DNA from: a virus
IMG/VR virus record: IMGVR_UViG_3300030004_000001
Coordinates: 62,001-126,000 of that record
Direction: 5' to 3' (one strand)
Length of the DNA: 64,000 bases
Shown here: piece after piece, positions 3,452 to 50,528 of the stretch
Layout of the letters: each line of letters starts with the position of its first letter
Position numbering within the stretch: position 1 is the first letter of the stretch
The notes under the pieces: generated by a model
Database searches by the model: none
The model's input: only the letters and a program-made list of their open reading frames with translations
What the model was told of the DNA's origin: nothing
Translations under genes and position numbers: made by a program

Positions 3452-3511
3452 GTGAATAGCGATATGCATTCACTCCATATATATTATAACAAAAAAGTGG
3501 CTTGTTTTGCG
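3452..3511 (-). promoter_or_regulatory. Promoter of the TGCAAA-N17-TATAAT family with 5' stem-loop
   Basis: -35 CGCAAA at 3506-3511, 17-bp spacer, -10 TATAAT at 3483-3488. An inverted repeat (GTGAAT/ATTCAC, 3452-3473) lies just past the expected start site. The -10 box overlaps the stop codon of the HNH gene. Confidence 0.8.
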
Positions 3512-4460: not shown

Positions 4461-6038
4461 GTGTCAATTAAAATTTCAAATTCAGACTTCATACAAAAAG
4501 TTATGAGACTTGATGGAAGGTTATGGAGATTTGTAGATAGACCATATATTTTTCCAATTATAAATAATCAAGCCAAAAGAACTCTTCTGCTTGCAGCTAG
4601 ACAGACTGAAAAATCTACTACAATGAGTGGAAATCAAATTGCTAATGCATGTTTAAATCCATATACTAGTTCATTGTATGTTGCACCTACATTCAAGCAA
4701 AGTGGGGTCTACTCACGTAAGAAAATAGATGAAATATTTGAAACATCTCAACTTTTAAATAAAACTTTTTATCCGGGAGTCAAAGGTTTTAGAATAGAAG
4801 AAAAGCGTTTAAAAAACCTATCCACTTTATATTTTCGATCTGCATTTCACGATGCAGATAGCATTCGGGGATTGACGATCGATTATCAGTATCATGATGA
4901 GATACAAGACCAGTTAGAAAATGTGGCACCGATAATCGAAGCTTGTTCTCAGAAACGTAAAAATGCCAAATATATGTATGCTGGAACTCCTAAAACTCTA
5001 GATAATAATATACAAAAAAAATGGGAAAAATCTTCACAGAATGAATGGCATGTAAAATGTATGCATTGTGGATATTATAATAAATTAGGAATAGAAGTTG
5101 TATTATTAGACAAGCCAGGTTTATGGTGTAGAAAATGTAAAAAAGAAATTCATACCAGATATGGATGTTGGGTATCTGCACAACAGTCTGAAATTCAAGG
5201 GTTTAGGTTACCTTATATTATTCTTCCAACTGAAGATATTGATTGGAGGGATTTGTATTTTAAAATGCGCAATTTTGACACAGGCGCATTAATGAATGAA
5301 ACTTTTGGCGAATCCTACGACAACGGCCAAAAACCCCTATCCAGAGATCAGTTAATATCATCTTGCAGTCTAGATAGACCCATGTGGAACATAATGCCAA
5401 CCAGTATTTCAGGTGTAGAATTATATGCTGGAATAGATTGGGGTGGTGGTAATACTGGATTTACAATTTTAACAATTGGATATTTTGATACCATTGCTAA
5501 TAAATTTAAAATTATCTTTGCCAAAAGATATATTGGTAGAGAAGCAGAACCTGAGAACTTAGTATTTTCTATTACTAAAACTTTAATGGATTTTCATGTT
5601 TCATTTGTTGGAGCAGACTTTGGATTTGGTTTTGATTTAAATTCGAGAATGCGTGGATTATTACCTAAGCATGTTGTATATGTAACCTATAGACATAGTA
5701 TTATTAAAAAAGCTTTAGCATGGGATGACCAAGGTAATACTTATGTGACTAATAGAACTGAAGTTATGACAGATTTATTTAATGCTATTAAAAGTAAAAA
5801 AGTAGAACCTTATCAATGGTCAGAATTCGAAGATATTGGAAAAGATTATTGTAATATTAATTCTGAATATTCTGATAGATTAAGACAGATGAGATATATT
5901 CATAGTCAACCCGATGATGCGTTTCATAGTCTTTTATATGCACGACTCACCTGGATGAAACGTACTGATCAGATAATTAGTACGCGATTGGATCCAGGTG
6001 ACTCTGATGTTAGTGTGAATATGAACGAAAATGATTGA
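4461..6038 (+). CDS. terL: Terminase large subunit
   Basis: 525 aa. GTG start with AAGGA seven bases upstream. ATPase domain: Walker A-like ARQTEKST at residues 46-53 and Walker B with D146-E147. A zinc-ribbon pair (C200, C203, C223, C226) follows. The C-terminal RNase H-fold nuclease shows D326 (GIDWGGG), D386 (GADFGFG) and a late 'DDAFH' acidic motif near residue 497. It packages DNA into the prohead by ATP hydrolysis and makes the packaging cut. Walker A has glutamate where most terminases have glycine before the lysine. No small subunit is recognisable nearby. First gene of the plus-strand head operon. Confidence 0.93.
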   Translation: MSIKISNSDFIQKVMRLDGRLWRFVDRPYIFPIINNQAKRTLLLAARQTEKSTTMSGNQIANACLNPYTSSLYVAPTFKQSGVYSRKKIDEIFETSQLLNKTFYPGVKGFRIEEKRLKNLSTLYFRSAFHDADSIRGLTIDYQYHDEIQDQLENVAPIIEACSQKRKNAKYMYAGTPKTLDNNIQKKWEKSSQNEWHVKCMHCGYYNKLGIEVVLLDKPGLWCRKCKKEIHTRYGCWVSAQQSEIQGFRLPYIILPTEDIDWRDLYFKMRNFDTGALMNETFGESYDNGQKPLSRDQLISSCSLDRPMWNIMPTSISGVELYAGIDWGGGNTGFTILTIGYFDTIANKFKIIFAKRYIGREAEPENLVFSITKTLMDFHVSFVGADFGFGFDLNSRMRGLLPKHVVYVTYRHSIIKKALAWDDQGNTYVTNRTEVMTDLFNAIKSKKVEPYQWSEFEDIGKDYCNINSEYSDRLRQMRYIHSQPDDAFHSLLYARLTWMKRTDQIISTRLDPGDSDVSVNMNEND

Positions 6039-6089
6039 CACTAGACGAATTTGTTGAGACAATAAAAGTATCTTGAATTGGACCCTCCT

Positions 6090-7289
6090 ATGGATTTAGA
6101 ACTTACAGCAAATAAAATAGCTTCGAAATATCTCAAGTCAAACGTAGATATGAATGAATCTATAGCTAAGTATGCTGCTGAAAATAAGTTAAATATTGAG
6201 CAAACTAAAAGATTAGTAGAAGAGTCCAATAAAACTTGTTATTTACAGAAATTTGCATCTACTGGTGATCAGATTTTTGATGTAGCACAATTTAATATAG
6301 TTAAAGAAAAAATCGGTTTATTAGATAAAGTAGAAAAAACTGCTGCTATTAAATTTACGGAATATAGTGATTTAGAAAAAGTAGCAGAAGAAAATCAGGT
6401 TGATACTCTTGAATATCAACTTGCTATTGATAAATGTAGAAAAGAAATTGGAGAAGAATTAACTAAAGTAGCTTCTTATTATAGACGTTTAGTTTATGAA
6501 AATCCTTCTTTAGAAAAGTTAGCTTATAGTGAAGTTCCCGCATTAAAGAAAGATATGGATAAAATTGCTCATAAAGAAAAAGTAATTGACTATTTAGTTG
6601 AAAAACGTGCGGGAATCATTTCTGGTTTAGCTGGTGGAGCATTAAAAGGTTCTGCTAAAGTAGTTGGTAAGGTTGGTGGTTATGTTGCCGAAGCTCCAAT
6701 TAAAAGAGGCTTAATGCCGGCTAGTTATATTGGATCATTTAAGGAGGGGATGAAAAAAGTGCCTGATAGTACTGGTAAATTTATTATGAATAAAGCCGCT
6801 GAAGTTACTAAAGAAGCTGGCGTATTTGATAAGGTTATACAAGCATTAGGTGAAAATTTAGTTCCAGCTTTAGCGTTAGGTTCTGTTGGAGTAGGTATTG
6901 CTGCTGCTAGAGGCGCTGGTGGTATCGTTTCAAGAATGATGCAGGAACGACAGTTAAATGATTCATTTAATACAATTGCTAAAGCTAATGCTGATATTCG
7001 TAATATTCCTAATGCTAGAGATTATTTTGATGTAATTGCGCGGCATAGTCCTTCTTTAGCTTTAGATCCAATGGTTGCCCCATCATTAATTCGTCAATTC
7101 GATACATTTAATGGAGTTGATGTTAATACAGTTGGTAAACTTCGTGAAATTCAGGATCGTGGCAGTAGAAATGATAGTCCTTCTATTTTAGACATGGCTG
7201 GTAGTTTCACTAAGGGATTTGATGCATTTAAAAAGAAAGATGTTAAACCCGTTGTAGTAAATACTTATTATAATGGCAAACCTGAATAG
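6090..7289 (+). CDS. Virion-associated protein rich in K-x-A motifs
   Basis: 399 aa from the ATG at 6090; a TTG at 6078 is an alternative, and neither has a clear ribosome-binding site. Residues 1-180 are helical and charged and carry about eight K-x-A tetrapeptides (NKIA, QKFA, EKTA, EKVA, TKVA, EKLA, DKIA, EKRA). Two Gly/Ala-rich hydrophobic stretches follow, around residues 180-210 and 255-285. Function is not recognised. Position between TerL and the capsid protease, and motifs shared with the major capsid N-terminus, suggest a head-internal or scaffold-like protein. Confidence 0.75.
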   Translation: MDLELTANKIASKYLKSNVDMNESIAKYAAENKLNIEQTKRLVEESNKTCYLQKFASTGDQIFDVAQFNIVKEKIGLLDKVEKTAAIKFTEYSDLEKVAEENQVDTLEYQLAIDKCRKEIGEELTKVASYYRRLVYENPSLEKLAYSEVPALKKDMDKIAHKEKVIDYLVEKRAGIISGLAGGALKGSAKVVGKVGGYVAEAPIKRGLMPASYIGSFKEGMKKVPDSTGKFIMNKAAEVTKEAGVFDKVIQALGENLVPALALGSVGVGIAAARGAGGIVSRMMQERQLNDSFNTIAKANADIRNIPNARDYFDVIARHSPSLALDPMVAPSLIRQFDTFNGVDVNTVGKLREIQDRGSRNDSPSILDMAGSFTKGFDAFKKKDVKPVVVNTYYNGKPE

Positions 7290-7319
7290 TAACCAAACTC
7301 ACACATAGGAGACATTTAA

Positions 7320-7997
7320 ATGTCGAAGCTTTTAATTGATAAACTCACTGAAGAAGTAGAAAAGACAGCTTCTGAAGTTGAAAAGACTGCCGAGGAACAG
7401 GCCCTTGAAAAGGTAGCTGGTGAAATTGGCGTTCTGGATGATTCGCGTTCTCTGATTGCTATTGGCGAGGAAATGTATAAGATCGCTGAAGAGTTAGAGA
7501 ATGATAATCTGAAAGCTCTTGCTGCTGATACTTATCAGCTTGGCGAAAGAATGGGAGCTTGCCTTACCAAGACTGCTTCTGAAGATGGTTCAGCTTTAGA
7601 AGAAGCTCTTGACATTGCTGAAGATATGAATAAGATCGCTTCAGTTTATGCTGAGATTGCTGATGAGGTTAAGGAAGACGAAACTCTTAATAAGATGGCT
7701 GAAACTCTTATTAATATTTCCAATGAACTTACTGAAGAGGCCAATGAGGTTCATACTCAGTTAGATAAGATGGCTGAGGAAGAAGTAGAGAAGGATGCTA
7801 GTGCTAAAGATAAGGCTAAGGAATATGCTGAGAAAGCCAAAGAAGCTGGTAAGAAAGCCGGTGATTATGCTGGTCAGAAAGCTAGTGCTTTAAAGGCTTT
7901 AATTAAAGCTCATCCTAAAGCCGCAATGGGTGCTGGCGGTGCCGCTGCCGCTTTAGCTGCTCTTGGTTATGGAGCTAAGAAACTTCACGATAAGTAA
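7320..7997 (+). CDS. Helical protein with nine K-x-A repeats and a glycine-zipper tail
   Basis: 225 aa, start preceded by TAGGAGAC. Acidic helical protein with EKTA (twice), EKVA, YKIA, TKTA, NKIA, NKMA, DKMA and EKDA, most followed by S or E. The C-terminus has an Ala/Gly-rich hydrophobic segment that could insert into a membrane. Codon use is slightly richer in G+C than the neighbours. Candidate internal head or scaffold protein; no homologue recognised. Confidence 0.72.
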   Translation: MSKLLIDKLTEEVEKTASEVEKTAEEQALEKVAGEIGVLDDSRSLIAIGEEMYKIAEELENDNLKALAADTYQLGERMGACLTKTASEDGSALEEALDIAEDMNKIASVYAEIADEVKEDETLNKMAETLINISNELTEEANEVHTQLDKMAEEEVEKDASAKDKAKEYAEKAKEAGKKAGDYAGQKASALKALIKAHPKAAMGAGGAAAALAALGYGAKKLHDK

Positions 7998-8006
7998 TAA
8001 TTACGG

Positions 8007-8034
8007 AAATGCCTAGTCTATTTGATAGGCATTT
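8007..8034. repeat. 9-bp inverted repeat, intergenic stem-loop
   Basis: Arms 8007-8015 and 8026-8034 (AAATGCCTA/TAGGCATTT) with a 10-base loop, between two head-region genes. No U-tract follows, so an mRNA-stabilising or processing hairpin is more likely than a terminator. Confidence 0.5.
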
Positions 8035-8059
8035 CAGCAATTATTATCTAGAGGATCAC

Positions 8060-8407
8060 ATGAGTTTAATTAAATTAGCTATGCGAACTGGTAAAGCTAT
8101 TAGAGGTTTATTTAGTGCCGTAGAAGCTGATGTTAAAAATTCTAGAAATGCAACTAAAAAAGCTATTCAGGGCGCTTATGAAGGTGCCAAGAATGGTGAT
8201 TTAGGTGCTGCTTATTTAAAACAACGTAAAATGAATAGTGATTTAGGTAAGAAGATTCGTAAATTAAGAGATCAGATTAAAGGTCATGAATCTGAAATTA
8301 AATCTCATAAATTAAAAGAAAAGATTATCGGTGGAGTTGGATTAGGAACTACCATTGGCGCTGGAAGTCTAGCTTTTCGTCATAAAAAGAATGTGGAGAA
8401 ATTATAA
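8060..8407 (+). CDS. MSLIKLA-family small protein
   Basis: 115 aa. The ATG at 8060 has GAGG eight bases upstream and begins the shared MSLIKLA peptide; an upstream ATG at 8009 would run through the intergenic stem-loop and is rejected. Basic helical middle, glycine-rich hydrophobic stretch near the C-terminus (about residues 90-105). The stop overlaps the next start by one base. Function unknown, probably a virion or membrane-associated structural component. Confidence 0.72.
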   Translation: MSLIKLAMRTGKAIRGLFSAVEADVKNSRNATKKAIQGAYEGAKNGDLGAAYLKQRKMNSDLGKKIRKLRDQIKGHESEIKSHKLKEKIIGGVGLGTTIGAGSLAFRHKKNVEKL

Positions 8408-8682
8408 TGTCTATCGTAAAACTTGCTTTTAATCTTTCAGGGATTAAAGATGCAGTAGTTAATGCTGCTAAAGGTACTGCTATTAAATCTGAGGCTCATC
8501 GCCTTGAGAATAGTACCTTAACTTCATTACGCAGACTTCCTACTGCTGCTGATAAACTTAAACATTTTGCTACTACTAAATCTGGCTTAAAATCTTTAGC
8601 TCCTAGTGCTGCTCTTTATGGAGGGGCTGCTTTAGGTGTTGGCGCTGCGGCAAAAGCTTTAACTGGCAAAAAGAATGATTAA
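8407..8682 (+). CDS. MSLIKLA-family small protein (MSIVKLA variant)
   Basis: 91 aa starting MSIVKLAF, with one-base overlap to the gene before and eight bases to the next. C-terminal Ala/Gly-rich hydrophobic segment (about residues 65-85) like its neighbours. Unknown function; grouped with the same putative structural set by its N-terminus. Confidence 0.68.
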   Translation: MSIVKLAFNLSGIKDAVVNAAKGTAIKSEAHRLENSTLTSLRRLPTAADKLKHFATTKSGLKSLAPSAALYGGAALGVGAAAKALTGKKND

Positions 8683-9028
8683 AGAAATTGCATTAAAATA
8701 TGATGATTTAGGATTATTTAAACTTGCATCTATTCTTGAAAAAGATGGTGCGGTTAATCCTATGCAGATGGCCATTAGTAAGACTATGAATCCTGAACAG
8801 GGATTACATTATAATCTTGCTACCGATGCTGCCGCTGCTGCTAAAAAAGATCCTTCTAAATTAGGATTAATGAGACAGCGTTTACAGGGATTAAAAAAGA
8901 CTGGACCGTTAAGATTAGATGATGCTGTTAAATCTGGCATTGTTAATTCCTTAAAGAAACCTACTCCTATAGCAGAAGTTATTCCATTTGCTAATAAACT
9001 TAAATCTATGGCTTTAAAAGTGAAATAA
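8675..9028 (+). CDS. Small head-region protein with FKLAS motif
   Basis: 117 aa. Has FKLAS around residues 15-19 after a short N-terminal helix, then a basic, alanine-rich body. Eight-base overlap with the previous gene. No family recognised; the FKLAS motif follows the K-x-A pattern of the operon. Confidence 0.65.
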   Translation: MIKEIALKYDDLGLFKLASILEKDGAVNPMQMAISKTMNPEQGLHYNLATDAAAAAKKDPSKLGLMRQRLQGLKKTGPLRLDDAVKSGIVNSLKKPTPIAEVIPFANKLKSMALKVK

Positions 9029-9029
9029 T

Positions 9030-9245
9030 ATGAGTTTAATTAAATTAGCATTTAAAGACTCAAAAGAATTAGATAGTGAATATATAGATAATAGATGGCT
9101 TGGAAGACGGGCAAGAGGTAAGTTATTAACTTATCCATTAGCTGCATTTGGAATGTTACCTGCTCCATTACTTGGACATTACTTAGATCATAGACGTAAA
9201 GAGAAAGATTTTATGAATCATCCTGAAAAATTTAAAAAGAAATAA
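9030..9245 (+). CDS. MSLIKLA-family small protein
   Basis: 71 aa; the first 18 nucleotides of the gene are identical to those at 8060, 48589, 50053 and 50199. Contains a short hydrophobic stretch near residues 35-50 and a basic tail. Immediately precedes the protease gene. Function unknown. Confidence 0.65.
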   Translation: MSLIKLAFKDSKELDSEYIDNRWLGRRARGKLLTYPLAAFGMLPAPLLGHYLDHRRKEKDFMNHPEKFKKK

Positions 9246-9247
9246 TA

Positions 9248-10972
9248 ATGTATAAATTAATAGAATCATCAAATATTCCAGAAGATCAACAAATATCTAT
9301 CTCATTAGAAGATAGATATGAAAATGATTTTATTAAAACTGCTTCTAAAAGAGATTTACCAAAAGAAGTTGATGAGGCTATTAAAAATTTAAAACGTAAA
9401 AAAGATCATAGCTATATGTTAGTAACTGCTATGGGTGATGGTGAAACATGGTCTGATAATAAAAATCATGATTATTTTCCATATGATTCATTGTTAGGAT
9501 TACAAAATACTCCTGTTTGGAATGAAGTCTCACCTAAAGATGAAAGATTAAATAATAGAATAAAAGCTAAGTTACGTTATCAAACATTTAGTGACGCTGG
9601 CTGGTTTCATCATCATCATAACAAACCAGAGCGTGGAGATCAAATTTATGGTGAGGTTCCAAATGCTATTTGGAATCCAAAAATGCATACAGTACTTCTT
9701 ATTATTGGAGTAGATAATAAAAAAGATCCTGAAACTGCTGAAATGATTAAAAGAAATCAATTAGTTGCAGTTTCTATGGGAGCTAAACTTCCATGGGATC
9801 GTTGTTCTATTTGTCATCAACATAATACTTCTATTATGAAATATTGTCCTCATCTTAAATTTCAAATGGGTAAAATTTTAGATGATGGTCGTAAAATTTA
9901 TGCTGAAAATTTATTTCCTAGATTTTTTGATATTAGTAAAGTAAATCGACCTGCATTTTTAGCCGGTATGCAATTAGAAAAAGTTGCTAGTACAGATTTT
10001 GAATTTAGTTTAGATCTTGCTGATTATTATGATATTGGACAATTTGATAAAGAGGCAGAAGAAATAGAAAAACATTCTACCATTTACAAAGAAATGCCAA
10101 CTCATATTGAAGGTGCAATAGCTAAAGTATGTAATACTGAAAGAGATCTTCCACATAAATTAATGGAAGAATTAGCTAAACTTAAACCTTCTGAAGCTTG
10201 GGGTGCTTTAACTCATGCCGGTATTATTGCTAAGCCAAATGAGTTTGCTTATATTTTATTAAAGAATTCTAATCGTGATGATTTAGCTCAAGAATTTTAT
10301 CATACTAAAGCAGTAATTAAAAATCCTGACGTAAAAGGATTAGATGAAGAATTGCATTCTTTAGCTGATATTGATATTACACATAAAGCCGTTAAATTAT
10401 CTAATGAAATTCCTACTCATATATTAGATGAAAGATCTATTGGATGTGTTGGAGATAGAATTTACAATACTGAAAAAGGTTTACGTAAAGAAGCCGAAAT
10501 AACTAGAACTATAGGTCTTGGATCTATTCTTTCTGCATTATATTTATTATATCGTAATAACGCTGAAAGTAAATTTAGCGCTTATGGTTTATTAGGTTCT
10601 GGTATTTCTCAAATGATTAGAGACAATAAAGAGTCTGATAAATATATTAGTAATAATCCATTTACTAATGAAGAGTTAAATAAACAAGCTGCCGCAGTTC
10701 CTGGTTTCTGGAATTCAGGCAAAGGATTATTAACTAAAGGAGCTATTGGTTTTGCAGCTCCATATATTGCTAGTGCCCACTACCAAAATAAAATGCAACA
10801 AGGATATCCTGTTGGAGTTTTAGGTAGAACTATTGCTAACAACCCTGGTAAAATGGGAATTGTTGGTGCCGCAATGGGAATGGCTGGTGCAAAGAATAGT
10901 TATAAAGCTATTAAGAATGTATCTAATGATTTAACAACTGGCGTAAGCAAAATTTTTAAGGATAAAAAATAA
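9248..10972 (+). CDS. Capsid (prohead) maturation protease, multidomain
   Basis: 574 aa. Residues 50-240 resemble phage prohead proteases: a histidine cluster H121-H124, a conserved 'YGEVPNA' strand, 'VAVSMGA' with candidate nucleophile S176, a zinc-like set (C186, C189, H190/H192, C200, H202), and 'FFDISKVNRPA', typical of the family. It would cleave scaffold and capsid propeptides during head maturation. The region after 250 is helical with K-x-A motifs and hydrophobic Gly/Ala segments near 490-510 and 540-560, so it may be a fused internal-head domain. IKTA (29-32) and EKVA (244-247) flank the protease domain and could be autocleavage sites. Catalytic residues are inferred by pattern. Confidence 0.75.
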   Translation: MYKLIESSNIPEDQQISISLEDRYENDFIKTASKRDLPKEVDEAIKNLKRKKDHSYMLVTAMGDGETWSDNKNHDYFPYDSLLGLQNTPVWNEVSPKDERLNNRIKAKLRYQTFSDAGWFHHHHNKPERGDQIYGEVPNAIWNPKMHTVLLIIGVDNKKDPETAEMIKRNQLVAVSMGAKLPWDRCSICHQHNTSIMKYCPHLKFQMGKILDDGRKIYAENLFPRFFDISKVNRPAFLAGMQLEKVASTDFEFSLDLADYYDIGQFDKEAEEIEKHSTIYKEMPTHIEGAIAKVCNTERDLPHKLMEELAKLKPSEAWGALTHAGIIAKPNEFAYILLKNSNRDDLAQEFYHTKAVIKNPDVKGLDEELHSLADIDITHKAVKLSNEIPTHILDERSIGCVGDRIYNTEKGLRKEAEITRTIGLGSILSALYLLYRNNAESKFSAYGLLGSGISQMIRDNKESDKYISNNPFTNEELNKQAAAVPGFWNSGKGLLTKGAIGFAAPYIASAHYQNKMQQGYPVGVLGRTIANNPGKMGIVGAAMGMAGAKNSYKAIKNVSNDLTTGVSKIFKDKK

Positions 10973-11544
10973 TGGATCTCAAAGAATTTATAGAAAAAAC
11001 AGAGCCAGAGGTCTTGCAAAAACTCGCGTCTGAAGCTCAAGATGAAATGGTTAATAAAGTAATAGATGCTATCTTTCCTTTGTTAGAAAAGACCGCAAAT
11101 TATACAGCACAGCTTGTCTTAGAAAAGATTGCCGAAGAATTATCTGAAAAGAAAGAACCTAAAGAAGAAAAGGAAGAGGTTGAAAATACCGATAATCCTA
11201 ATGAGGAAAGTGCAGAACAAGCTGCTGTAGAAGATGAAAATGTTAAAATAGATAGTACTCCTGCTACTGGTAATAAAACTAATGAAACTATGGACCCAAC
11301 TAATACTCCAGGTGGTATGCGGGCTCAGGATATTAAAAATGCGGTAAGTGAAGCTTGCGAGGCTGGTCAATCTAATAAAATTATTCCATTTGTTAAAGCT
11401 GTAGGTGAACAATATCCTGATGCTATTCAGGAATTAATTAAAATGGTTAAAGTAGAATTACAAGCTGCTTTTTTAAATAAATCTATTGATGAGGAAACTG
11501 CTACTGCTCTTTCCGATGAATTAAATGCGATGGTGGGAGCTTAA
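10972..11544 (+). CDS. Acidic scaffold-like protein
   Basis: 190 aa. N-terminal helices with QKLAS, EKTAN and EKIAE motifs, a strongly acidic low-complexity stretch (about residues 60-95), and a helical C-terminus. Composition and position between protease and capsid genes fit a scaffolding or internal core protein. It overlaps the protease stop by one base. Confidence 0.65.
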   Translation: MDLKEFIEKTEPEVLQKLASEAQDEMVNKVIDAIFPLLEKTANYTAQLVLEKIAEELSEKKEPKEEKEEVENTDNPNEESAEQAAVEDENVKIDSTPATGNKTNETMDPTNTPGGMRAQDIKNAVSEACEAGQSNKIIPFVKAVGEQYPDAIQELIKMVKVELQAAFLNKSIDEETATALSDELNAMVGA

Positions 11545-11949
11545 ATGAGTGATAGTTTTATTGATAAACTTTTAGCAGAAGCCGAATCTGAGATTGGTTC
11601 GGATTTAGAAAAGTCAGCTAATGATGAAAATGGTGCGCCCGATGCTCCATCTAATCAGGAACAGGGTGGTGGTGATATTTTAACTACTGCTCAAGCCTTT
11701 TTACAGAAAGTAGAACAGTTTAAAGCTGCTTTATCTCAGGGTGGGACTCCAGCAGAAGGTGATCCTAATGCGCAGCCTAATCAGGAAGATCAACCTGCCG
11801 AAGCTGCCGCTGCTCAAGCTGTAGGAGCTACTACTTCTGGTAATAGCACAGTAATGATTCAAAGACCTGATGGAACGCAAATTAAATTAGCCTCTTTAGC
11901 TTCGTTAGTTTCGGCTAGAGGATCTAAACTTTTTAAAGAGGTAAATTAA
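11545..11949 (+). CDS. Acidic Gln/Ala-rich head-region protein
   Basis: 134 aa, adjacent to the previous gene. EKSA motif near residue 24, a Pro/Gln/Gly/Ala-rich disordered middle, and IKLAS near residue 112. Likely scaffold or core component; not recognised by family. Confidence 0.62.
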   Translation: MSDSFIDKLLAEAESEIGSDLEKSANDENGAPDAPSNQEQGGGDILTTAQAFLQKVEQFKAALSQGGTPAEGDPNAQPNQEDQPAEAAAAQAVGATTSGNSTVMIQRPDGTQIKLASLASLVSARGSKLFKEVN

Positions 11950-11950
11950 A

Positions 11951-12334
11951 ATGGACCCAGTTCAGCAAGGTCAATCAGATCCGCTTCAGGATGCTTTACA
12001 GCTTTTAGATGAATCTGCTGCTATTATTCAAGAATTAACTGCTCAGATTCAGTCTAAGGGAAAAGACGAAGATATGTCCAAGAAAGCGGAGGAAGTGGCC
12101 GTTAAATTAGGCGTGTCTTTTAATCAGGCTTCTGATATGATTAAGACTGCGAGCGAATCAGGTGAAAGTATCGATGCCATGGTAAAAATGGCCTCTATTA
12201 TGAGACAGAATAGATCTTTTGGTTCCGTATATACAGAAGAAAAAGTAATTCCAATTTCAGGCTCTAAAGCAATTGATTCATTCATGGAAAAGCAAGCTGC
12301 GTTAATGGGTGAATTAGGACTTGACGAAAATTAA
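11951..12334 (+). CDS. Small head-region protein with repeated K-x-A motifs
   Basis: 127 aa, helical, with KKAE, IKTAS, VKMAS and EKQA spaced through residues 45-115. One base after the preceding stop and before the decoration-like gene. Candidate scaffold or maturation substrate; function unknown. Confidence 0.62.
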   Translation: MDPVQQGQSDPLQDALQLLDESAAIIQELTAQIQSKGKDEDMSKKAEEVAVKLGVSFNQASDMIKTASESGESIDAMVKMASIMRQNRSFGSVYTEEKVIPISGSKAIDSFMEKQAALMGELGLDEN

Positions 12335-12359
12335 CCATTATATCAAGGAGATATAAAAT

Positions 12360-12794
12360 ATGTTTAACATTCTCAGTGGCCTTCAGGAAGGTTCTCACTC
12401 AGTAATGATCACTAGCCGTTCTGGCCCCGCCGGACTGGTTAAAGGTACGGTTGTTCAGTTAACTGGTACTTCTAATACTATTGCTAAATCTGATAATAGC
12501 ACCGTAGGTCTTGGATCTTCAATTGGTTTCATCTTTGAAGATCTGTTAAGTCAGACTTCCGGTTCTTATACCGTAGTTTATGGTGTCATGGAAGCTGAAA
12601 CTGATCAGGTTTCTGGATCACCTGCCATTGGTTCTTATCTTAAGCCTGGCACTGGTGCTACTGCCGGTTTACTTATTGCAGCTAGTCTTCCTGGCGATGC
12701 TAATTTGGTTAAAGGTCAGGTAGCTGATAGTTACAGCATTGCTAATGATGCTCAGGGTATTAGCACTTCGGTTTATCGTATCGTAACCTTTTAA
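12360..12794 (+). CDS. Capsid decoration-like protein
   Basis: 144 aa, start with AAGGAG nine bases upstream. Predicted beta-rich, small and G/S/T-rich, with 'GLVKGTVVQL' and 'GSYLKPG' turns as in small head-decoration or capsid-fibre proteins placed just before the major capsid gene. G+C-richer codons match the capsid gene, suggesting high expression. Function inferred mainly from position and composition. Confidence 0.6.
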   Translation: MFNILSGLQEGSHSVMITSRSGPAGLVKGTVVQLTGTSNTIAKSDNSTVGLGSSIGFIFEDLLSQTSGSYTVVYGVMEAETDQVSGSPAIGSYLKPGTGATAGLLIAASLPGDANLVKGQVADSYSIANDAQGISTSVYRIVTF

Positions 12795-12827
12795 GATAAA
12801 TTAAAAATTAAATAGGAGATTTTAATT

Positions 12828-13748
12828 ATGAGTAATATGATGGCTTCCCAGCTTTGGGATGTATTTACCGGAAAATCAGCTTCCGGTATGGAGAAGGTAG
12901 CCGCTCTTACTGAGGATTTTATTCGTGATCGCCTTCGTGAGACTAGCGTATTAAATCGCGCTATTCCTCCTGTAGTACTTACCGAAGCACAGATTGAACG
13001 TAATACTACTAATGACTGGCCTCTGAAGCGCGTTGAGATTGAGCCCGATTCTAAGGCTTTCACTCTTGGCTTCCGTGGTAAGGGTTCTGCTAACTTTATG
13101 GAAGGCAGAAAGTATGAAGTTTACTTTACCAAGATTGAAACTCAGCACTTTAAGAAGACCCGTGAAGAATTAATGACAATGCGTTATCCTCTTATGGATG
13201 TTGTGAATAACAACTTCGTACTGGATATGCAGGAACAGCTTGATGCTCTCTTTAAGATTAGACTTGATGCTTCCGTAGCCGCTTCCGGTAATACCTCTGC
13301 TGCTACTGCTGGTGCCGTAAAAGATAACTTTAAGAATGCAGTTATTACAGCGGTTCGTCAGGTGCTTGGTAAACGGCGTAGAGTTGCTCGCCTTATTATG
13401 ACAGAATCAACTTGGCTGGACCTGGCTAAGCTCGAACCTGATAAGATTGGTTATGAGAATGTTGGACGTATTGCGCTGAATGGCGTTGCTGCGGAAAAGA
13501 CATTCTTAGGTTATGAAGTTATCACTTCGATTAACTCCACTACCGCTAATAGCGTATGGCCTGATGATAGTATCTATGCCATTGCAATGCCTGAATTTTT
13601 AGGTTCTAACTTTATCCTGGGTGATGTTCAACAGGAAATGAAGCGTGAAGCTAATATTCTCGAATGGTATTCATGGGCTGATCAGGGTGCTGAAATTGGT
13701 AACGTTGCCTCAGTTGCTAAGGTTACTGGTATTGCCTCTCTCACTTAA
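12828..13748 (+). CDS. Major capsid protein (HK97 fold)
   Basis: 306 aa, start with TAGGAG. The central part contains 'RRRVARLIMTESTWLDL' and 'GYEVITSI' followed by a C-terminal beta region, typical of HK97-type major capsid proteins in this gene order. Residues 1-25 form a short N-terminal arm ending in EKVA (22-25), the same K-x-A motif as in the scaffold-like proteins. This could be a cleavage site releasing a very short propeptide. Codons are the most G+C-rich of the window, as expected for the most abundant virion protein. Confidence 0.88.
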   Translation: MSNMMASQLWDVFTGKSASGMEKVAALTEDFIRDRLRETSVLNRAIPPVVLTEAQIERNTTNDWPLKRVEIEPDSKAFTLGFRGKGSANFMEGRKYEVYFTKIETQHFKKTREELMTMRYPLMDVVNNNFVLDMQEQLDALFKIRLDASVAASGNTSAATAGAVKDNFKNAVITAVRQVLGKRRRVARLIMTESTWLDLAKLEPDKIGYENVGRIALNGVAAEKTFLGYEVITSINSTTANSVWPDDSIYAIAMPEFLGSNFILGDVQQEMKREANILEWYSWADQGAEIGNVASVAKVTGIASLT

Positions 13749-20044: not shown

Positions 20045-20503
20045 CTATTTCTTTACATTCTTATCGTTAGGCATATATTGATTTAATAAAGAACCATCTA
20101 ATACATTCTTATCATTTATTTTATAATAAATGACTATACGATAAAACATTGGATTTTCTTTATCTTTAGTTGTAAATTCTCCAATATAACATAACTTAAT
20201 TTCTTTAGCCCAATCCTTATTTATTAAATCATCATATTCGTCTAAGTGAATTCTAGAAATAATCTCACCAAAAAAACTAAATTTCTTTTTTAATTTCTTT
20301 TCTTCTAAATCAGTAATATCGCTATACTGAAAAATAATAAAAGGATTGCCAAACATATCTAATCTAATATCATTATCAACTATATGATATTTATGATTAT
20401 TATTAGCAATCTTATCTAAAAGTAATACATATTCACCTAATTCATCAGTATTAGTTAATTCAAAATATTCGGAATGAGATTTTACGACTGGCGTTTTTTC
20501 CAT
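20045..20503 (-). CDS. Unknown protein of the portal-neck region
   Basis: 152 aa, alpha/beta, acidic, no motif recognised. Overlaps the MSLIKLA gene upstream by 22 bp, so it is translated with it. Likely structural by position. Confidence 0.58.
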   Translation of the reverse strand: MEKTPVVKSHSEYFELTNTDELGEYVLLLDKIANNNHKYHIVDNDIRLDMFGNPFIIFQYSDITDLEEKKLKKKFSFFGEIISRIHLDEYDDLINKDWAKEIKLCYIGEFTTKDKENPMFYRIVIYYKINDKNVLDGSLLNQYMPNDKNVKK

Positions 20504-21309
20504 GGACCCAAATCCCTTACGTTAGTATTCATTAACTTCTGCCAATTATCGAATCTGGCTATACGACGCGCTCTGGCTTCAGGAGTTGACATTAAGCGAT
20601 CTGCTAATATATGTTTTCCAATTAATTTATTATAAAAAGGTTTATTAGCAGCCTCTAATTGAGATCTCCAATAATTATCTTTAAAATATTCTTTATGAAT
20701 TTTAGGCATCATAGATAATTTACCATGTGTAAAATTCATCATTTTCTTAACAGATCCACCTAATGCGCCACCAATTAATCCACCTTTAGCCATACCTTTT
20801 AATTTTTCATGCTCATTATCTCCCTGAGTATATCCAATAGCGGCACCACTAATAGTTCCTAAATGAGCGGTTGGAACTTTCTTAGCTACACTTAAAAATT
20901 TATGAGCATCATTACCTAAATTAATCATTCCCTCAATATTTTTAATTTTAAATTGACCATCATCTGAAATGGAATGTTTTAATATACTTTTAGCAATTCT
21001 ATTAGTTCCCGTGGGAACATTATGAATATCTTCTAATGCATTAATTCCCATACGTCCAAACTGTCCAAGTAATGCACCATCTATAAAAGCGCCTCTTAAA
21101 GTAGTTGAGTCTTGAACTAATCCTTTTCTTATATTAGCTTCAGCTTGTGCTACTCCAGCTAAAGCTGATCTTTGTATAATATTTTTTCTAATAGGACCAT
21201 TAGTTCTAGACATCATAAATTTTAATGGATTCCCAGATCTAGCTGCTCTCATACTATAAAAACTAGGGAATAAACTACCCGGATTAAATGCTAATTTTAT
21301 TAAACTCAT
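20482..21309 (-). CDS. MSLIKLA-family protein with glycine-zipper segments
   Basis: 275 aa starting MSLIKLAFNPG; its first 18 bases differ by only one from the other copies. Basic, with Gly/Ala-rich hydrophobic stretches near residues 150-165 and 175-190 that could insert in a membrane. Four-base overlap (ATGA) with the portal stop. Candidate head-internal or ejected protein. Confidence 0.68.
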   Translation of the reverse strand: MSLIKLAFNPGSLFPSFYSMRAARSGNPLKFMMSRTNGPIRKNIIQRSALAGVAQAEANIRKGLVQDSTTLRGAFIDGALLGQFGRMGINALEDIHNVPTGTNRIAKSILKHSISDDGQFKIKNIEGMINLGNDAHKFLSVAKKVPTAHLGTISGAAIGYTQGDNEHEKLKGMAKGGLIGGALGGSVKKMMNFTHGKLSMMPKIHKEYFKDNYWRSQLEAANKPFYNKLIGKHILADRLMSTPEARARRIARFDNWQKLMNTNVRDLGPWKKRQS

Positions 21310-23129
21310 ACCTTCGCCTTTTCGGGAGTAGATTTTGGACCTTTAACTTCAGGTAATGGATCTGCTGAAACCCCATTTAATTCTGCCATAACTTTCATAT
21401 AAACTTCTGGATCTTTAGCTTGCAAATTTCTTAATTCTTTTTGTCTATCAGCATAAGATAAATCTTTAAATTTATTCACAAATCCACGAGTAGTTGTAGC
21501 CATAAATCCATCACCTATATTAGATTGAGCAGATTGAGTTTCTTGACCTTGTAATAATTGTGTTCTTAAATTAACATCAACTTGACCTTCATTAGTAACT
21601 TGAGAAACTTCTTTATTAACTTCAGCAGCAGCCAATTGTCTAGCTGCTTGAATTCTCTCAAGGAAGGGTTTATCATCTTCCATTTGCTTAGCTTCATCGG
21701 CAATATTAATACCAACTTGAGCCAAAGCTGTACTTTCACTAATACGACCCTGCGCACCAAGATTTGAAAGCATTTGAATTTGCTGAATATCATCAGCCAT
21801 TTTAAATGGTTTAAGTTTAACACTACTTGGAGCTTGCTTATTGGTCATACGTGCTAAATAACGTACTAAAAATCTAATAAATGTATTTTGTTTATTAATA
21901 TAATATAAAAATAAATTCTCTAACATACGTAAAGAAATATTAGATCCGCTCCAAGTCATACCACCATAAATTAATTCTGGTGGAATTCCTAATTGAGTAA
22001 GAATTCTACGATCCTGTAATTCAATTTCTTCCCGTAAAGACATAGCTTTTCCTTGGCCACCCAAAGCCTGATAGCCAACAGGAAAAGGAACAACTCCAAT
22101 TTCATTGGGATCATTTTGCTGTCTCTTTAATTGAGTAGCTACAATACCCATCCATGCAGCACCATCAATTTTACTTAACGGATCAGTGCCACTAGACGAC
22201 GTTGGAAATATAAATCTATTAGGAAGAAAATGATCTGAAGCAATACATTCCTGAGCCTTACGTAAAATAAAACTCATAAATAAATCGTTCCATGCTGAGA
22301 AGAAAAATGGTTTTGATAATCCTTCCCATTCTGGTTCTGTAATGCCTTCATGCTGATAATGAAAAGTTAATTCAGCAGGTAATTCTATTACTGGATTAAT
22401 TGGATTTTGTTTGCAAGCTAATATGAAAGTTTCTGGAACATTAGCTACTACAAATTTATCACCCTTCATAATTGGTTTAGAATATTTATCTTCGATACGA
22501 TAATAAATTTTCTTTTTACCAGCAATACCTAAATCTCTTACTTTAATAAACTGAACAGGCCATCTCTGAATTCTAATATTTTTAATGAATTCATCGCCTT
22601 CTAACAATTCATCTTTAACCTTCATTACACCTTGAAATTTACAATTTTTATTAGAACATTTAGCTAGAAATTTATAATCCCTAAATTGCCATTCAAATTT
22701 ACGATCTTCATCAGTAATACAATGTGCTTTATAAGTATTACAATCAGGACAAGCTAAATAACGTTTAAATGGAGGAACTATAGATACTATAGCATTTCCA
22801 AAAGTATAATAATCTTTTCCATTTTTAACTAATTCATCTTGAATACATAATTCATCATTAAGTAATTTAGACCAATAATTTTTATCTTCTCCAATATCAT
22901 TATCTACTACCACGGGAGTAATAGGATATCGTGACATAGTATCGGTAATACGATCTAAAAGACCAGAAGATTCGTTTAAAACAATAGCCCATTTAAAAAT
23001 TTCATTTAAAGTCTTTGGTCTTTGAAGATGTAATAAATTATAAAATCTTTGAGGATACTGCAAGCCGTTCATTGGATAACGACGACCAGTCTCCGGTGCT
23101 ACTACTGATGTTGTAGATACATTAGTCAT
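21306..23129 (-). CDS. Portal protein
   Basis: 607 aa. 'YYTFGNAIVSIVPP' near residues 107-120 and 'QLGIPPELIYGG' near residues 395-410 are typical of phage portals, followed by helical crown-like segments. A zinc-binding insertion with C127, C130, C137 and a second CxxxxC pair around 160-165 interrupts the wing region. It forms the dodecameric DNA channel at the head vertex and binds TerL. Unusually, it is encoded on the opposite strand and 15 kb away from TerL. Confidence 0.88.
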   Translation of the reverse strand: MTNVSTTSVVAPETGRRYPMNGLQYPQRFYNLLHLQRPKTLNEIFKWAIVLNESSGLLDRITDTMSRYPITPVVVDNDIGEDKNYWSKLLNDELCIQDELVKNGKDYYTFGNAIVSIVPPFKRYLACPDCNTYKAHCITDEDRKFEWQFRDYKFLAKCSNKNCKFQGVMKVKDELLEGDEFIKNIRIQRWPVQFIKVRDLGIAGKKKIYYRIEDKYSKPIMKGDKFVVANVPETFILACKQNPINPVIELPAELTFHYQHEGITEPEWEGLSKPFFFSAWNDLFMSFILRKAQECIASDHFLPNRFIFPTSSSGTDPLSKIDGAAWMGIVATQLKRQQNDPNEIGVVPFPVGYQALGGQGKAMSLREEIELQDRRILTQLGIPPELIYGGMTWSGSNISLRMLENLFLYYINKQNTFIRFLVRYLARMTNKQAPSSVKLKPFKMADDIQQIQMLSNLGAQGRISESTALAQVGINIADEAKQMEDDKPFLERIQAARQLAAAEVNKEVSQVTNEGQVDVNLRTQLLQGQETQSAQSNIGDGFMATTTRGFVNKFKDLSYADRQKELRNLQAKDPEVYMKVMAELNGVSADPLPEVKGPKSTPEKAKV

Positions 23130-23550
23130 TTAAATATCTTTCAACAGCCTTATGTTTTAAATCTTGCATTTTTTGTTGATCTATATCTAATTTAACTTCG
23201 TTTGATATTTCATCTAATTCATCTTGTGCGAATTTTAAAATATCAGGAAGTTGGCACCAACCTTCTTCAAAAGCAATTTCTGCTATATACTTCTTTACTT
23301 CACGATGCCAGTTCTGTTCACCTAATAGTTTAACAGCTTTAGCTATGTGAAGTATAGTAGAAGGTTCGAGAATATCTATGTTGGGTTTAAATCCATTTAG
23401 TACATAAACTAATTTTTCAAAAGTAAATACATTACCTAATATTCCAGGGTTGGATTTAAGTGCTTGAAGTGCAAAAATCTTTTCAAGCTGATTTTCATAT
23501 AACCGGCCATCATTAAGTAAGACGATTGTGTCATTCTCTAAGTTATTCAT
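23122..23550 (-). CDS. Unknown helical protein next to the portal gene
   Basis: 142 aa, helical, acidic C-terminus. Overlaps the portal start by 8 bp and the upstream stop by 8 bp, implying translational coupling. Not recognised. Confidence 0.62.
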   Translation of the reverse strand: MNNLENDTIVLLNDGRLYENQLEKIFALQALKSNPGILGNVFTFEKLVYVLNGFKPNIDILEPSTILHIAKAVKLLGEQNWHREVKKYIAEIAFEEGWCQLPDILKFAQDELDEISNEVKLDIDQQKMQDLKHKAVERYLND

Positions 23551-24469
23551 TTATCTTACGAATCACAATTACACGAATGTTAGGATTAATTTCACGTAAA
23601 GCATCCACTGGATTACTCTTTAATTTGTCCAAGACTTTATCTTCAAGAATATCTTTTAAAGAATTAAAGTCAAATTTATTTATTTTATGTAAAGGAAGTG
23701 ATTCTTCTCCAATATTAACATTTTCATTAGCGTTAGTTTCAAATGGAGTCAATAAACCAGCGTAAGGATCTTCCAATTCGTTATCATAAAATTTATGTAA
23801 ACCAGTTCTATGATCGAATATACCTAAAGCTTTAGCTACTAATTCTGGAATATGTGATTCTGATTCTTCCTGCATTTTAAGTAAGTGAGTCCGTTCTGGA
23901 GCATCGCTTTTAAAATATTTCATACGATCGGCAAATGCATGTCCATAATTTTTCTTAAAGTGATCGCCAGCATATCTATATACTGAATCATGCAAAGAAG
24001 ACTGTTTACCTAACGAATGAGCATGATGTAAAATTTCTTTAGCCTTCTCCCTACGTTCCTCTATAGGATATCGTTTATGATTATCAATAAATTTGTTTAA
24101 TTCAATAGATAAAGAATGTAAAGCATCTAAATCATCTTCCTCAGAAGCAGTTTTGGAAAATTCAACTTCTGGTAATTCAAAAGTTTTATAAGCATCACTA
24201 ATTCGATCTCTAATTTCAGAAACTTCACGTTCGTCAAATTCATGTGCAAATTTTTCAAAATAAGCATTACTAAACCATGTATGTTCAGGAGTATGAATTG
24301 GAAAATATCTATTAATACCATCAGAGTAAGCAAAACAACCATCTGCTAATTTTTCTAAATTTTCAGATACAATATTATCTTCTGCTACCTTAATAAACTC
24401 TGGCATTGCTTCATTAATAGCACCAATTCTATATCTACCTAATTGATCATGAATATGGTCAGTAAACAT
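23543..24469 (-). CDS. Head/neck-associated protein with K-x-A motifs
   Basis: 308 aa, charged and helical, with IKVA, EKLA, EKFA and SKTAS in the N-terminal 110 residues, the same pattern as the head-operon proteins on the other strand. Sits two genes before the portal. This links the two distant head-gene clusters through a shared motif. Function not recognised. Confidence 0.65.
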   Translation of the reverse strand: MFTDHIHDQLGRYRIGAINEAMPEFIKVAEDNIVSENLEKLADGCFAYSDGINRYFPIHTPEHTWFSNAYFEKFAHEFDEREVSEIRDRISDAYKTFELPEVEFSKTASEEDDLDALHSLSIELNKFIDNHKRYPIEERREKAKEILHHAHSLGKQSSLHDSVYRYAGDHFKKNYGHAFADRMKYFKSDAPERTHLLKMQEESESHIPELVAKALGIFDHRTGLHKFYDNELEDPYAGLLTPFETNANENVNIGEESLPLHKINKFDFNSLKDILEDKVLDKLKSNPVDALREINPNIRVIVIRKINE

Positions 24470-24479
24470 TTTATGTCCT

Positions 24480-25655: not shown

Positions 25656-25672
25656 GTTTTCGCTCTAAGCAT

Positions 25673-28083: not shown

Positions 28084-28084
28084 A

Positions 28085-48006: not shown

Positions 48007-48102
48007 ATGAATGATTTAATTAAGAATATGCCAAAACATGAGCAAGACAAAATGAATAAGTTAATGAAGAAATTTATTGAGAACTATAATGGGTCTAATT
48101 AA
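48007..48102 (+). CDS. Small basic protein
   Basis: 31 aa, helical and Lys/Met-rich, ends GSN. Its stop overlaps the start of the next gene. No good ribosome-binding site; weak. Confidence 0.35.
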   Translation: MNDLIKNMPKHEQDKMNKLMKKFIENYNGSN

Positions 48103-48241
48103 ACTAGCATTAGAAACATCTCCACTAGTAGAGAGTGACAAAGATCCTCGTCTACTTCCTGATACGGTAAGACAAAAACCTCAATTAAGAACCAAACCAA
48201 ATAAAACAATGATGAACTGGGGAATGAAGAATACTGGTTAA
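48089..48241 (+). CDS. MSLIKLA-family small protein (MGLIKLA)
   Basis: 50 aa. Begins MGLIKLALETS and has a basic tail. It overlaps the previous gene by 14 bp and belongs to the group of short proteins sharing the N-terminal peptide. Confidence 0.6.
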   Translation: MGLIKLALETSPLVESDKDPRLLPDTVRQKPQLRTKPNKTMMNWGMKNTG

Positions 48242-48588: not shown

Positions 48589-49332
48589 ATGAGTTTAATT
48601 AAATTAGCTTTAGTTGTTCCTCAGACTAAATTTAATAGTTTTAAAGATAACCTTGCAGCATTGCCGGTTAGAGGTTATGCCACTATGTCTAATAGTGGGA
48701 ATATAATCGCTGGCGATGTGCGTAATCCATTACTTAGATTCACTTCTCCATTACATAAAATTTTTGATAGCAAACAAAATATAAAAGATTTACACAGAAT
48801 AGGAATTAAGCATGAATTATCTGAAAGAAAATATCTTAATCAATATAATGAAGGTAAAGGTCCTTTCGAAAGAATGTTTTCTAATCCTGTAAAAGCAGAT
48901 ATAAGACAAGGTATTTTTAATGCACCAAAAGGTAGGCATGCTACTTTAGCCGTTTTGGGCGAAGAAAGTAATAATTTATCTAAATTAAAAAATAAAAATG
49001 CAATTAATAGAATGCAAAAGATACGATATTTAACTGGTGAATCTGATATTATTAAAAATATAACTAGTAAAACTTATGGTAAAGATTTACTTTCTGCTGC
49101 TGATATAGATAAATTACATCAATCATCATTAAAACAATCTTTATATCACACAAAATCAAAATCTGCTATTGGTAGAGTAGCAGGCATGGCACTTGCTCCA
49201 TTTTTAATAAAAGGGGAAAATGATCAAAATACTGTAGGAAAGAGAATTGATGCTTCTATATTAGGTGGAATGGTTGGTGCTAAAGGTGAGAAATTCTTAC
49301 GAACTAATATTTTAAAACTACATAAGAGATAA
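48589..49332 (+). CDS. MSLIKLA-family protein
   Basis: 247 aa with the shared N-terminus, then a basic helical body and a Gly/Ala-rich hydrophobic segment near residues 200-235. Resembles the 20482-21309 protein in plan. Possibly virion-associated. Confidence 0.66.
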   Translation: MSLIKLALVVPQTKFNSFKDNLAALPVRGYATMSNSGNIIAGDVRNPLLRFTSPLHKIFDSKQNIKDLHRIGIKHELSERKYLNQYNEGKGPFERMFSNPVKADIRQGIFNAPKGRHATLAVLGEESNNLSKLKNKNAINRMQKIRYLTGESDIIKNITSKTYGKDLLSAADIDKLHQSSLKQSLYHTKSKSAIGRVAGMALAPFLIKGENDQNTVGKRIDASILGGMVGAKGEKFLRTNILKLHKR

Positions 49333-49336: not shown

Positions 49337-50056
49337 ATGCCCTGGTCATATCCTGATAATGTACCAACTTCAATGAAATATTTTAAACCTTCTATTCAGA
49401 AGAAAGCAATTTCTATTGCAAATGCCATACTTAAAAATGGTGGTTCAGAAGGCACGGCCATTGCAACTGGAATTAAACGAAGTAAAGGATTGGTTAAATT
49501 AGCATCAGCTTTTACCAATGTTAAAGATTTTGTTAAATCTAATAAATTTGCTTTAGGTGCTGCTGGTTTAGGTGCTGGACTGGCTGGATTAGAAAGTAAA
49601 AATCAAATAACTGATAAAAAATTTACAAAAGGTCAAAGAGTTAAAAATGCGATTGTAACAGGTGCTCTTTTCGGTGCTTCAGGATGGGGATTAGACAGAC
49701 TCTCTGGTATGAGAAAAAATATTATAAATAGAATAGAAGAGGATTTAGGAGACCCTAGAGATATCAACTCTAAGATTAGATCTAAAATTACAGAAGCAAT
49801 GAAACAAGAAAAAGTTCCAGTTAAACCTGGAGGTTATCATAGATTTCCTATTGAAGCAAAAGTTCATGAAAAAGGTAATTATAGAACTCAATTAATAAAA
49901 TTTACGCATGGTAAGGATGGTATTGAAAAACTATCCTTTATACGGGATGGTAAATTTTTAAAAGAATTTATTAAACAATTAAATAAAGGTAATAAGAAAT
50001 ATTTAGTAGATAATTATAATAAACTTATTGAGAAAACGCAGGAGTCTATATTATGA
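49337..50056 (+). CDS. Protein with N-terminal 'PWSYPDNVP' domain and glycine-rich hydrophobic segment
   Basis: 239 aa. Residues 1-48 match a short domain seen by eye in many bacterial and phage proteins ('YPDNVPxSMK...KKAISIANAIL...EGxAIA'), function unknown. VKLAS (about residues 53-57) follows the K-x-A pattern. A Gly/Ala-rich stretch (75-90) and a charged C-terminus follow. Start with GAGATAATA. The stop overlaps the next gene. Confidence 0.65.
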   Translation: MPWSYPDNVPTSMKYFKPSIQKKAISIANAILKNGGSEGTAIATGIKRSKGLVKLASAFTNVKDFVKSNKFALGAAGLGAGLAGLESKNQITDKKFTKGQRVKNAIVTGALFGASGWGLDRLSGMRKNIINRIEEDLGDPRDINSKIRSKITEAMKQEKVPVKPGGYHRFPIEAKVHEKGNYRTQLIKFTHGKDGIEKLSFIRDGKFLKEFIKQLNKGNKKYLVDNYNKLIEKTQESIL

Positions 50057-50202
50057 GTTTAATTAAATTATGTTCAGTTATAATTCCTGATTCTCATTTA
50101 AAAGAAGATCATGAAGAATTAGAAAAAATGAAAAAGAATTCGAAAGGAATTCTTAAAACTGTAAAAGAAATGGAAGAAGAAGATAGTAAGGCTAAAAAAT
50201 GA
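50053..50202 (+). CDS. MSLIKLC-variant small protein
   Basis: 49 aa. First 18 bases identical to the other copies, then Cys replaces Ala. The rest is a charged helix, ending KAKK. Short overlaps with both neighbours support translation. Confidence 0.6.
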   Translation: MSLIKLCSVIIPDSHLKEDHEELEKMKKNSKGILKTVKEMEEEDSKAKK

Positions 50203-50528
50203 GTTTAATTAAATTAGCATTAGATCAACAAAAAACTGGTATCGCTGGCTTTACTCAACGTCATCCTTATTTGACCTCAGGAATTGCGTTAACTGGTGGA
50301 CTTGCGGCAGCCGACGCTGGTTTAAATGTATTTAAAACTTTAAAAGGAACGGGTGGTAGCCTCATTTCGGGTTTAAAGCAAATTAAGGGTAATCCTGGGC
50401 TCAGGAATGAGCTAGGTCACGGCATCAAGAAAGGTCTGGTGGAGGGTGGGCTTTATGGCTCGATTCTGGGGACTGTAGAACCTGCTATTGGTAGGGGAAT
50501 ATTTAGAAAACCTAAAGGTGAGGAATAG
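50199..50528 (+). CDS. MSLIKLA-family protein
   Basis: 109 aa with the shared N-terminus and Gly-rich segments (about residues 30-60, 80-100). G+C-richer second half. Last gene before a bidirectional terminator. Confidence 0.65.
   Translation: MSLIKLALDQQKTGIAGFTQRHPYLTSGIALTGGLAAADAGLNVFKTLKGTGGSLISGLKQIKGNPGLRNELGHGIKKGLVEGGLYGSILGTVEPAIGRGIFRKPKGEE

Follow-up and report, generated by a model that had tools for sequence, protein, structure and literature searches.

The stretch of viral DNA discussed here, referred to below as the window, spans 64,000 nucleotides, from base 62001 to base 126000 of a virus record of 157,395 bases, and belongs to a phage whose closest named relatives are Salmonella phage Arash and the Vibrio phages D69, D148 and D181. 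In it, the gene of a prohead (head maturation) protease, at 9248-10972, comes after those for the large terminase (TerL) and several scaffold-like proteins and before that for the major capsid protein. The proteins encoded in this region repeatedly carry a short K-x-A motif. A preliminary description of this DNA had reported the motif between TerL and the capsid protein, and had proposed that it might be the cleavage site of the protease or else a packaging signal. The first proposal now has strong comparative support from the flanks of the protease, 62 capsid proteins, 48 of 51 protease loci and the virion proteins of Arash, and it is very probable that K-x-A is the cleavage motif of the 9248-10972 protease.

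Three forms of the motif were counted, namely K-[ILVTM]-A, the same followed by S or E, and hydrophobic-x-K-[ILVTM]-A, with expectations taken from shuffles that preserve composition. In the twelve proteins encoded at 6078-13748, the first form occurs 27 times (7.5 expected, with 18 as the highest value in 1000 shuffles), the second 18 times (1.1 expected) and the third 25 times (2.0 expected). Thus, the motif, its location, its enrichment and the S or E that usually follows it are as previously described, although the earlier figure of more than thirty occurrences was too high. The hydrophobic residue two positions before the lysine is a part of the motif that had not been stated before. In the other 79 proteins of the window, by contrast, the counts are 16 (15.9 expected), 0 (2.1 expected) and 3 (5.0 expected), respectively, so that the excess over shuffled proteins, a check suggested in the preliminary description, is confined to the head genes. 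The mirror pattern A-[ILVTM]-K-x-hydrophobic is found 3 times in the proteins of 6078-13748 (1.9 expected), and variants with E or R for K, or with G or S for A, stay at expectation. Individual occurrences reported earlier were also recovered: EKVA at residues 22-25 of the major capsid protein, three motifs in the 23543-24469 protein and VKLA in the 49337-50056 protein, while the 1040-residue polymerase, said to lack K-x-A-[SE], contains a single KIA, with G after it, and no occurrence with S or E in that place.

The gene at 9248-10972, previously noted as protease-like, is assigned to the head maturation proteases by its match to PHROG_18299 (3.4e-11), which is shared by 43 of 46 homologues, and by an hhalign match of its profile to the putative prohead core protease of Dickeya phage JA29 (probability 97.9, E 3.5e-13). 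Its BLAST and profile matches include annotated prohead or capsid maturation proteases, and in Arash and D69 the protease gene is likewise located between scaffold-like and capsid genes. Residues N71, D75, H123, S176, D184, C186 and D228 are invariant in the 46 homologues, and the AlphaFold2 (AF2) model has a predicted local distance difference test score of 84.5. A sequence search of the PDB with the protease and its profile returned no relevant match, and Pfam S78 was matched by only four homologues, at best with 0.0056. At residues 184-203, between the invariant serine and a conserved FFDIS motif, there is a conserved CSIC-x(9)-YC-x-HL-like insertion that resembles a zinc site and is also found in the proteases of Bacillus phage G and Dickeya JA29.

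Motifs bracket the core domain of this enzyme, a feature that the preliminary description had missed. Hydrophobic-x-K-x-A is found shortly before the core in 50 homologues, and exactly 10 residues past the FFDIS-x-V core motif in 44 of the 55 homologues that have an FFDIS-type motif. In 6 more, the usual site is lost and a new one lies 13-35 residues past that motif (50 of 55 in total), which fits a site in a linker better than a part of the fold. As for the capsid protein, its AF2 model clearly resembles HK97-type capsids (best Foldseek E 4.8e-10), and it is 26% identical to Arash Gp226. All 62 capsid proteins read have K-x-A in the N-terminal arm at a single homologous position, usually as R/L/M-x-K-E/V-A, and the K and A of the motif are invariant in an alignment with the Arash and D69 proteins. 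The motif thus flanks the protease core and marks the boundary of the capsid N-terminal arm, which is where cuts are to be expected in a self-processing protease and in its capsid substrate.

A similar picture emerges across the protease family. Scanning viral contigs yielded 80 loci each for the protease and the capsid protein. In 591 open reading frames (ORFs) near protease genes, every residue pair separated by one to four positions was counted without bias towards any motif, with 402 other ORFs of the same loci as a control. K..A ranked first among gapped pairs near the protease genes (2247 against 1145 expected, z 32.6), whereas the control ORFs showed no excess (411 against 429). Near 51 diverse protease homologues, the motif occurs 1132 times where 236.5 are expected, with 48 of the 51 loci enriched at p<0.01; the motif, sought in related phage genomes as had been suggested earlier, is a trait of the family. 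It is also repeated in scaffold-like proteins adjoining 48 of the 51 proteases. In a logo of 2145 distinct sites, M, L, F or I stands two positions before the lysine and E, Q or V one before it, T, Q, V, E or I follows it and A comes next; directly after the alanine, S, E and A are preferred and R is disfavoured. The recognition sequence is most likely [L/M/F/I]-x-K-x-A with S, E, A or G after it; in this lineage it is mostly [L/M]-x-K-[V/I/L/T]-A, and conservation suggests that the cut is probably made directly after the alanine. Two distant homologues, from Mycobacterium phage Myrna and Gordonia phage Pupper, are accompanied by a mild K-x-A excess (22 against 11.9 and 19 against 10.8). In these phages (L196 and L197), the protease core is matched by Myrna gp97, a 1211-residue protein annotated as a tape measure, and by Pupper gp94. 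The capsid proteins of both phages contain EKQxKLAHILSDKVGG at about residues 41-56, which may be a related site.

The virions of Arash have been analysed by mass spectrometry, in a paper that mentions neither a protease nor cleavage (PMC10585845). Arash proteins with at least six virion peptides contain 73 motifs where 35.8 are expected, while those undetected in virions contain 12 (16 expected). The excess is found mainly in Gp4, Gp218, Gp220-223, Gp225 (with two peptides only) and Gp242. For instance, Gp220, the homologue of the window protein at 6078-7289, has 9 motifs and was detected in virions. At the N-termini, the RNA polymerase Gp206, which is the most-detected virion protein (128 peptides), begins with MPKSASE, and its D69 counterpart with MPKKASD; Gp95 starts with MSLHKLA (5 virion peptides) and Gp100 with MEKQASF (9 peptides). 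Cuts at the motif would give Gp226 a new N-terminus right behind GLVKEA (GAAMSAF...), Gp222 new ones behind LTKQA and LEKVA, and Gp206 one behind MPKSA (SELTPIF...).

In addition to these sites, at least 13 mostly unrelated ORFs of the present phage begin with MSLIKLA or a close variant, N-termini that had also escaped the preliminary description. A loose DNA pattern for such starts matches this genome 14 times, once at the protease's internal LEKVA site, whereas the reversed pattern has 0 matches. Once the tag is removed, 28 tagged ORFs from this phage and its near relatives fall into 23 unrelated families. In those relatives, a variable block of tagged genes lies directly upstream of the protease gene, with five consecutive ones in one case (L040); overall, tagged genes are mainly found there, with a few scattered loci besides. 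Other lineages have the same arrangement with a different start, such as MIIKLA or MIVKLA (L041, L042) and MKYFEK[ITNQ]A (L050, L053), and K-x-A is the sole element common to the tags of all lineages (MSLIKLA, MIIKLA, MKYFEKxA and MPKxA). A homologue of the 9030-9245 protein (in L038) is only 34% identical to it, yet retains MSLIKLA. Most motifs of the 7320-7997 protein are retained in homologues of 53-66% identity. For the distant tagged proteins, a search for orthologues suitable for a conservation test gave near-identical copies only, or none. MSLIKLA-type starts stand out in close kin, with 22 in eight fragments of closer relatives against 0 in the control; as a feature of the whole family they were rejected, given a modest 38 against 17 in the control over 27 records outside the near relatives.

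These starts look like the propeptides of T4 internal proteins, in which targeting and cleavage would be combined, so that the packaging signal proposed as the alternative in the preliminary description is compatible with cleavage. In T4, too, short N-terminal propeptides are common to otherwise divergent, poorly conserved internal proteins, the gene of the protease gp21 lies among core and scaffold genes near the capsid gene, scaffold proteins have multiple sites and self-cutting is expected (PMC9026906). However, T4 uses [LI]-x-E, with the cut after Glu, instead of hydrophobic-x-K-x-A, the predicted capsid propeptide of the present phage, at about 25 residues, differs from that of T4, and the likeness of its protease to gp21 is weak in sequence and fold. 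With the phiKZ and SPN3US group there is the clear profile match to a giant-phage prohead core protease (Dickeya JA29) mentioned above, and also a C-terminal propeptide on the protease, predicted for the present phage, and virions with a multisubunit RNA polymerase (PMC5694885, PMC10052503). The A-x-E|S site of SPN3US gp245 has the same P3-x-P1 spacing, with Ser favoured after the cut (PMC10052503). In contrast, the propeptides of that group are mostly longer than 100 residues, and P1 is Glu, where P1 Ala and P3 Lys are predicted here. The T4, phiKZ and SPN3US enzymes all cut after Glu (PMC9026906, PMC5694885, PMC10052503); judged from the enriched motif, this specificity would not apply to the window protease, as the sites in processing positions end in Ala. 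Sequence comparison suggests a system that works like those of T4 and the giant phages, with a protease related to the giant-phage enzymes but with different specificity-defining residues.

Among closer systems, Arash and the Vibrio phages D69, D148 and D181 have homologous protease and capsid proteins and the same motif, and Arash also has a homologous portal, terminase, sheath, RNA polymerase and scaffold; in these phages, the second residue of the motif is broader (E, Q, S or A) and N-terminal tags are few. Bacillus phage G gp19 is a homologous protease with LVKTA before the core and ILEKVAS after it, although the major capsid protein of that phage, gp27, has no K-x-A in the deposited sequence. 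Outside the phages, the herpesvirus assemblins are capsid-maturation serine proteases that free themselves from scaffold, and their maturation sites end in Ala before Ser. In the literature searched, whose coverage did not extend to subscription papers, no K-x-A motif of a phage protease is described.

Other explanations of the motif have to be considered. It could be a by-product of helical scaffold proteins rich in Lys, Ala and Glu, and the proteins densest in motifs are indeed rich in these residues. This is hardly credible, as shuffles of the same composition give 2.0 where 25 are observed, mirror and near-variant motifs are not comparably enriched and the motif holds fixed positions in the capsid and protease proteins, which are not repetitive; composition as the cause was ruled out by the shuffles, the mirror motifs, the other genes and the counts per locus. 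It is also very unlikely that K-x-A serves for docking or packaging by binding to the core or capsid, without being cut itself. Tags on unrelated proteins do resemble targeting signals, and T4 propeptides direct proteins to the core (PMC9026906), but flanking a protease core and marking the boundary of a capsid propeptide are typical of processing sites, and since the tags of different lineages share K-x-A alone, the shared part is the cleavage-like part. As for the MSLIKLA starts, recent duplication or recombination at a conserved start region, without a function of the peptide, could account for their similarity. At most tag positions, codon choice varies somewhat less than in the genome at large, and in one relative (L004) the 18 nt upstream of two tagged genes are identical; this origin is improbable nonetheless, because the proteins are unrelated beyond the tag, nearly every tag codon has synonymous and conservative variants, and the tags of other lineages differ yet keep K-x-A.

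Finally, the motif may belong to a protease that cuts elsewhere, after the lysine or a few residues downstream, or the enzyme may be a host protease. The scissile bond has been placed from conservation, which leaves room for such a shift, but the preference for S, E or A right after the alanine and the spacing shared with SPN3US point to the bond after Ala, and the sites co-occur with this protease gene family-wide, so that a different cut or enzyme seems unlikely. Several points weigh against the reading of K-x-A as a cleavage motif. The case is a comparative one, some occurrences need not be cut, and hydrophobic-x-K-x-A can arise by chance. In Arash, the excess depends on a handful of head genes, and the published coverage, tried as a test for missing N-termini, cannot serve for this and was dropped because its coverage column gives 100% for proteins with two peptides. 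Furthermore, the similarity of the protease model to T4 gp21 (5jbl) is weak in Foldseek (E 0.4, template modelling scores 0.32/0.49), which is not significant and was rejected as proof of the fold, and the hhalign match is marginal when gp21 alone is the target (E 0.083). In this weak alignment, the serine of gp21 VSS lies opposite S176 and the NHPP histidine region opposite the HHHH region; S176 and the likewise invariant H123 are candidates for the catalytic residues.

If K-x-A is the cleavage motif, head maturation could proceed as follows. Multi-site scaffold proteins, tagged cargo, protease and capsid protein would co-assemble into a prohead, where the protease would free or activate itself by cuts at FIKTA|S and LEKVA|S and then shred the scaffold. 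The 25-residue capsid propeptide would be trimmed at MEKVA|A and the short N-termini removed from internal proteins, after which the fragments would exit and DNA would enter. The tags, MSLIKLA here and MIIKLA, MKYFEKxA or MPKxA elsewhere, would target small unrelated proteins to the core and end in a cleavage site. It is reasonably likely that such a tag acts as a plug-in packaging code, by which small unrelated proteins from a fast-changing cassette are taken up into the head, then trimmed and finally injected.

The features of the window are collected in Table 1. Some ORF starts had been called too early, which the preliminary description overlooked: the ATG start of 6078-7289 is more likely at 6090, and the real start of an ORF called at 8009-8407 is probably 8060, giving MSLIKLA.

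Table 1. Head-related genes and predicted processing sites in the window
Feature	Position	Strand	Basis
Large terminase	4461-6038		
Scaffold/core-like protein, 6 K-[ILVTM]-A motifs (1.2 expected)	6078..7289	+	Arash Gp220 homologue
Scaffold/core-like protein, 8 motifs (1.3 expected)	7320..7997	+	
Predicted internal head protein, propeptide MSLIKLA	8060..8407	+	
Predicted internal head protein, propeptide MSIVKLA	8407..8682	+	
Predicted head protein, site LFKLA at residues 14-18	8675..9028	+	
Predicted internal head protein, propeptide MSLIKLA	9030..9245	+	
Prohead (head maturation) protease, 574 aa; core ~residues 50-241, long C-terminal extension	9248..10972	+	PHROG_18299, profile match, AF2 model
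Predicted N-terminal self-cleavage site FIKTA|S, residues 28-32	9329..9343	+	Equivalent sites in 50 homologues; low-confidence linker in AF2 model
Predicted C-terminal self-cleavage site LEKVA|S, residues 243-247, directly after core	9974..9988	+	Conserved spacing in homologues
Scaffold-like acidic protein, 3 motifs, between protease and capsid genes	10972..11544	+	
Head protein, 1 strict motif (IKLAS, K at residue 114) and LEKSA	11545..11949	+	
Head/scaffold-like protein, 2 strict motifs (MIKTAS, MVKMAS)	11951..12334	+	
Major capsid protein, HK97 fold, 306 aa	12828..13748	+	PHROG_2522 7e-7; AF2 model/Foldseek
Predicted capsid propeptide cleavage site MEKVA|A, residues 21-25	12888..12902	+	Homologous K-x-A in 62 capsid proteins and in Arash, D69
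Predicted internal head protein, N-terminal MSLIKLA, adjoins portal gene	20482..21309	-	
Portal protein	21306..23129	-	25% identity to Arash portal Gp204, E 6.6e-59
Predicted head protein, 3 motifs within first 110 residues (0.38 expected)	23543..24469	-	
Small tagged ORF, MGLIKLA	48089..48241	+	
Predicted internal/ejected protein, N-terminal MSLIKLA	48589..49332	+	
Protein with one motif, GLVKLAS, K at residue 54	49337..50056	+	
Predicted internal/ejected protein, N-terminal MSLIKLA	50199..50528	+	

Some other genes were noticed. Outside the window, at record position 23576-29563 (L024:3576-9563), a 1995-residue ORF combines beta-like (Rpb2) and beta-prime-like (Rpb1) RNA polymerase domains; its residues 22-1399 match Arash Gp206 and 1425-1995 match Gp216, and by its sequence it is a single-chain phage RNA polymerase of the multisubunit type. 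A tagged ORF (MSLVKLA, 23267-23566) directly precedes it. In the window, the products of 16121-17143 and 17160-18128 (both minus strand) match different parts of Arash Gp236 (706 residues; sheath-like, by a weak Pfam match), so that the tail sheath seems to be split into two genes or interrupted. The minus-strand gene at 29529-31028 encodes an SNF2-like helicase with 35% identity to Arash Gp217, which is abundant in virions (38 peptides). By eye, the N-terminus MRKSFQYRLYPTKSQLTRLE of the 57280-58383 product (minus strand) resembles a TnpB/IS605 OrfB-type protein, and the C-terminal HIVPIKL...CEECH of the 3484-4419 product (minus strand) an HNH endonuclease.

Few phages have a known prohead protease motif, and the mapped ones of the T4/phiKZ type (T4, phiKZ and SPN3US) are all Glu-directed. 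As K-x-A is very probably where the protease cuts, it offers a means of predicting the protein contents of the virus head, and a motif that is readable from sequence over dozens of diverse phage lineages makes mature capsid N-termini, scaffold and internal proteins predictable. Should the MSLIKLA-type starts be targeting propeptides, injected proteins would be recognisable by them in phages for which no culture is available as yet; in T4, proteins of this class include one that inhibits host restriction and one that modifies RNA polymerase. Were the tag indeed a packaging code, it would by itself reveal a hidden stock of injected proteins throughout a large group of uncultured phages.

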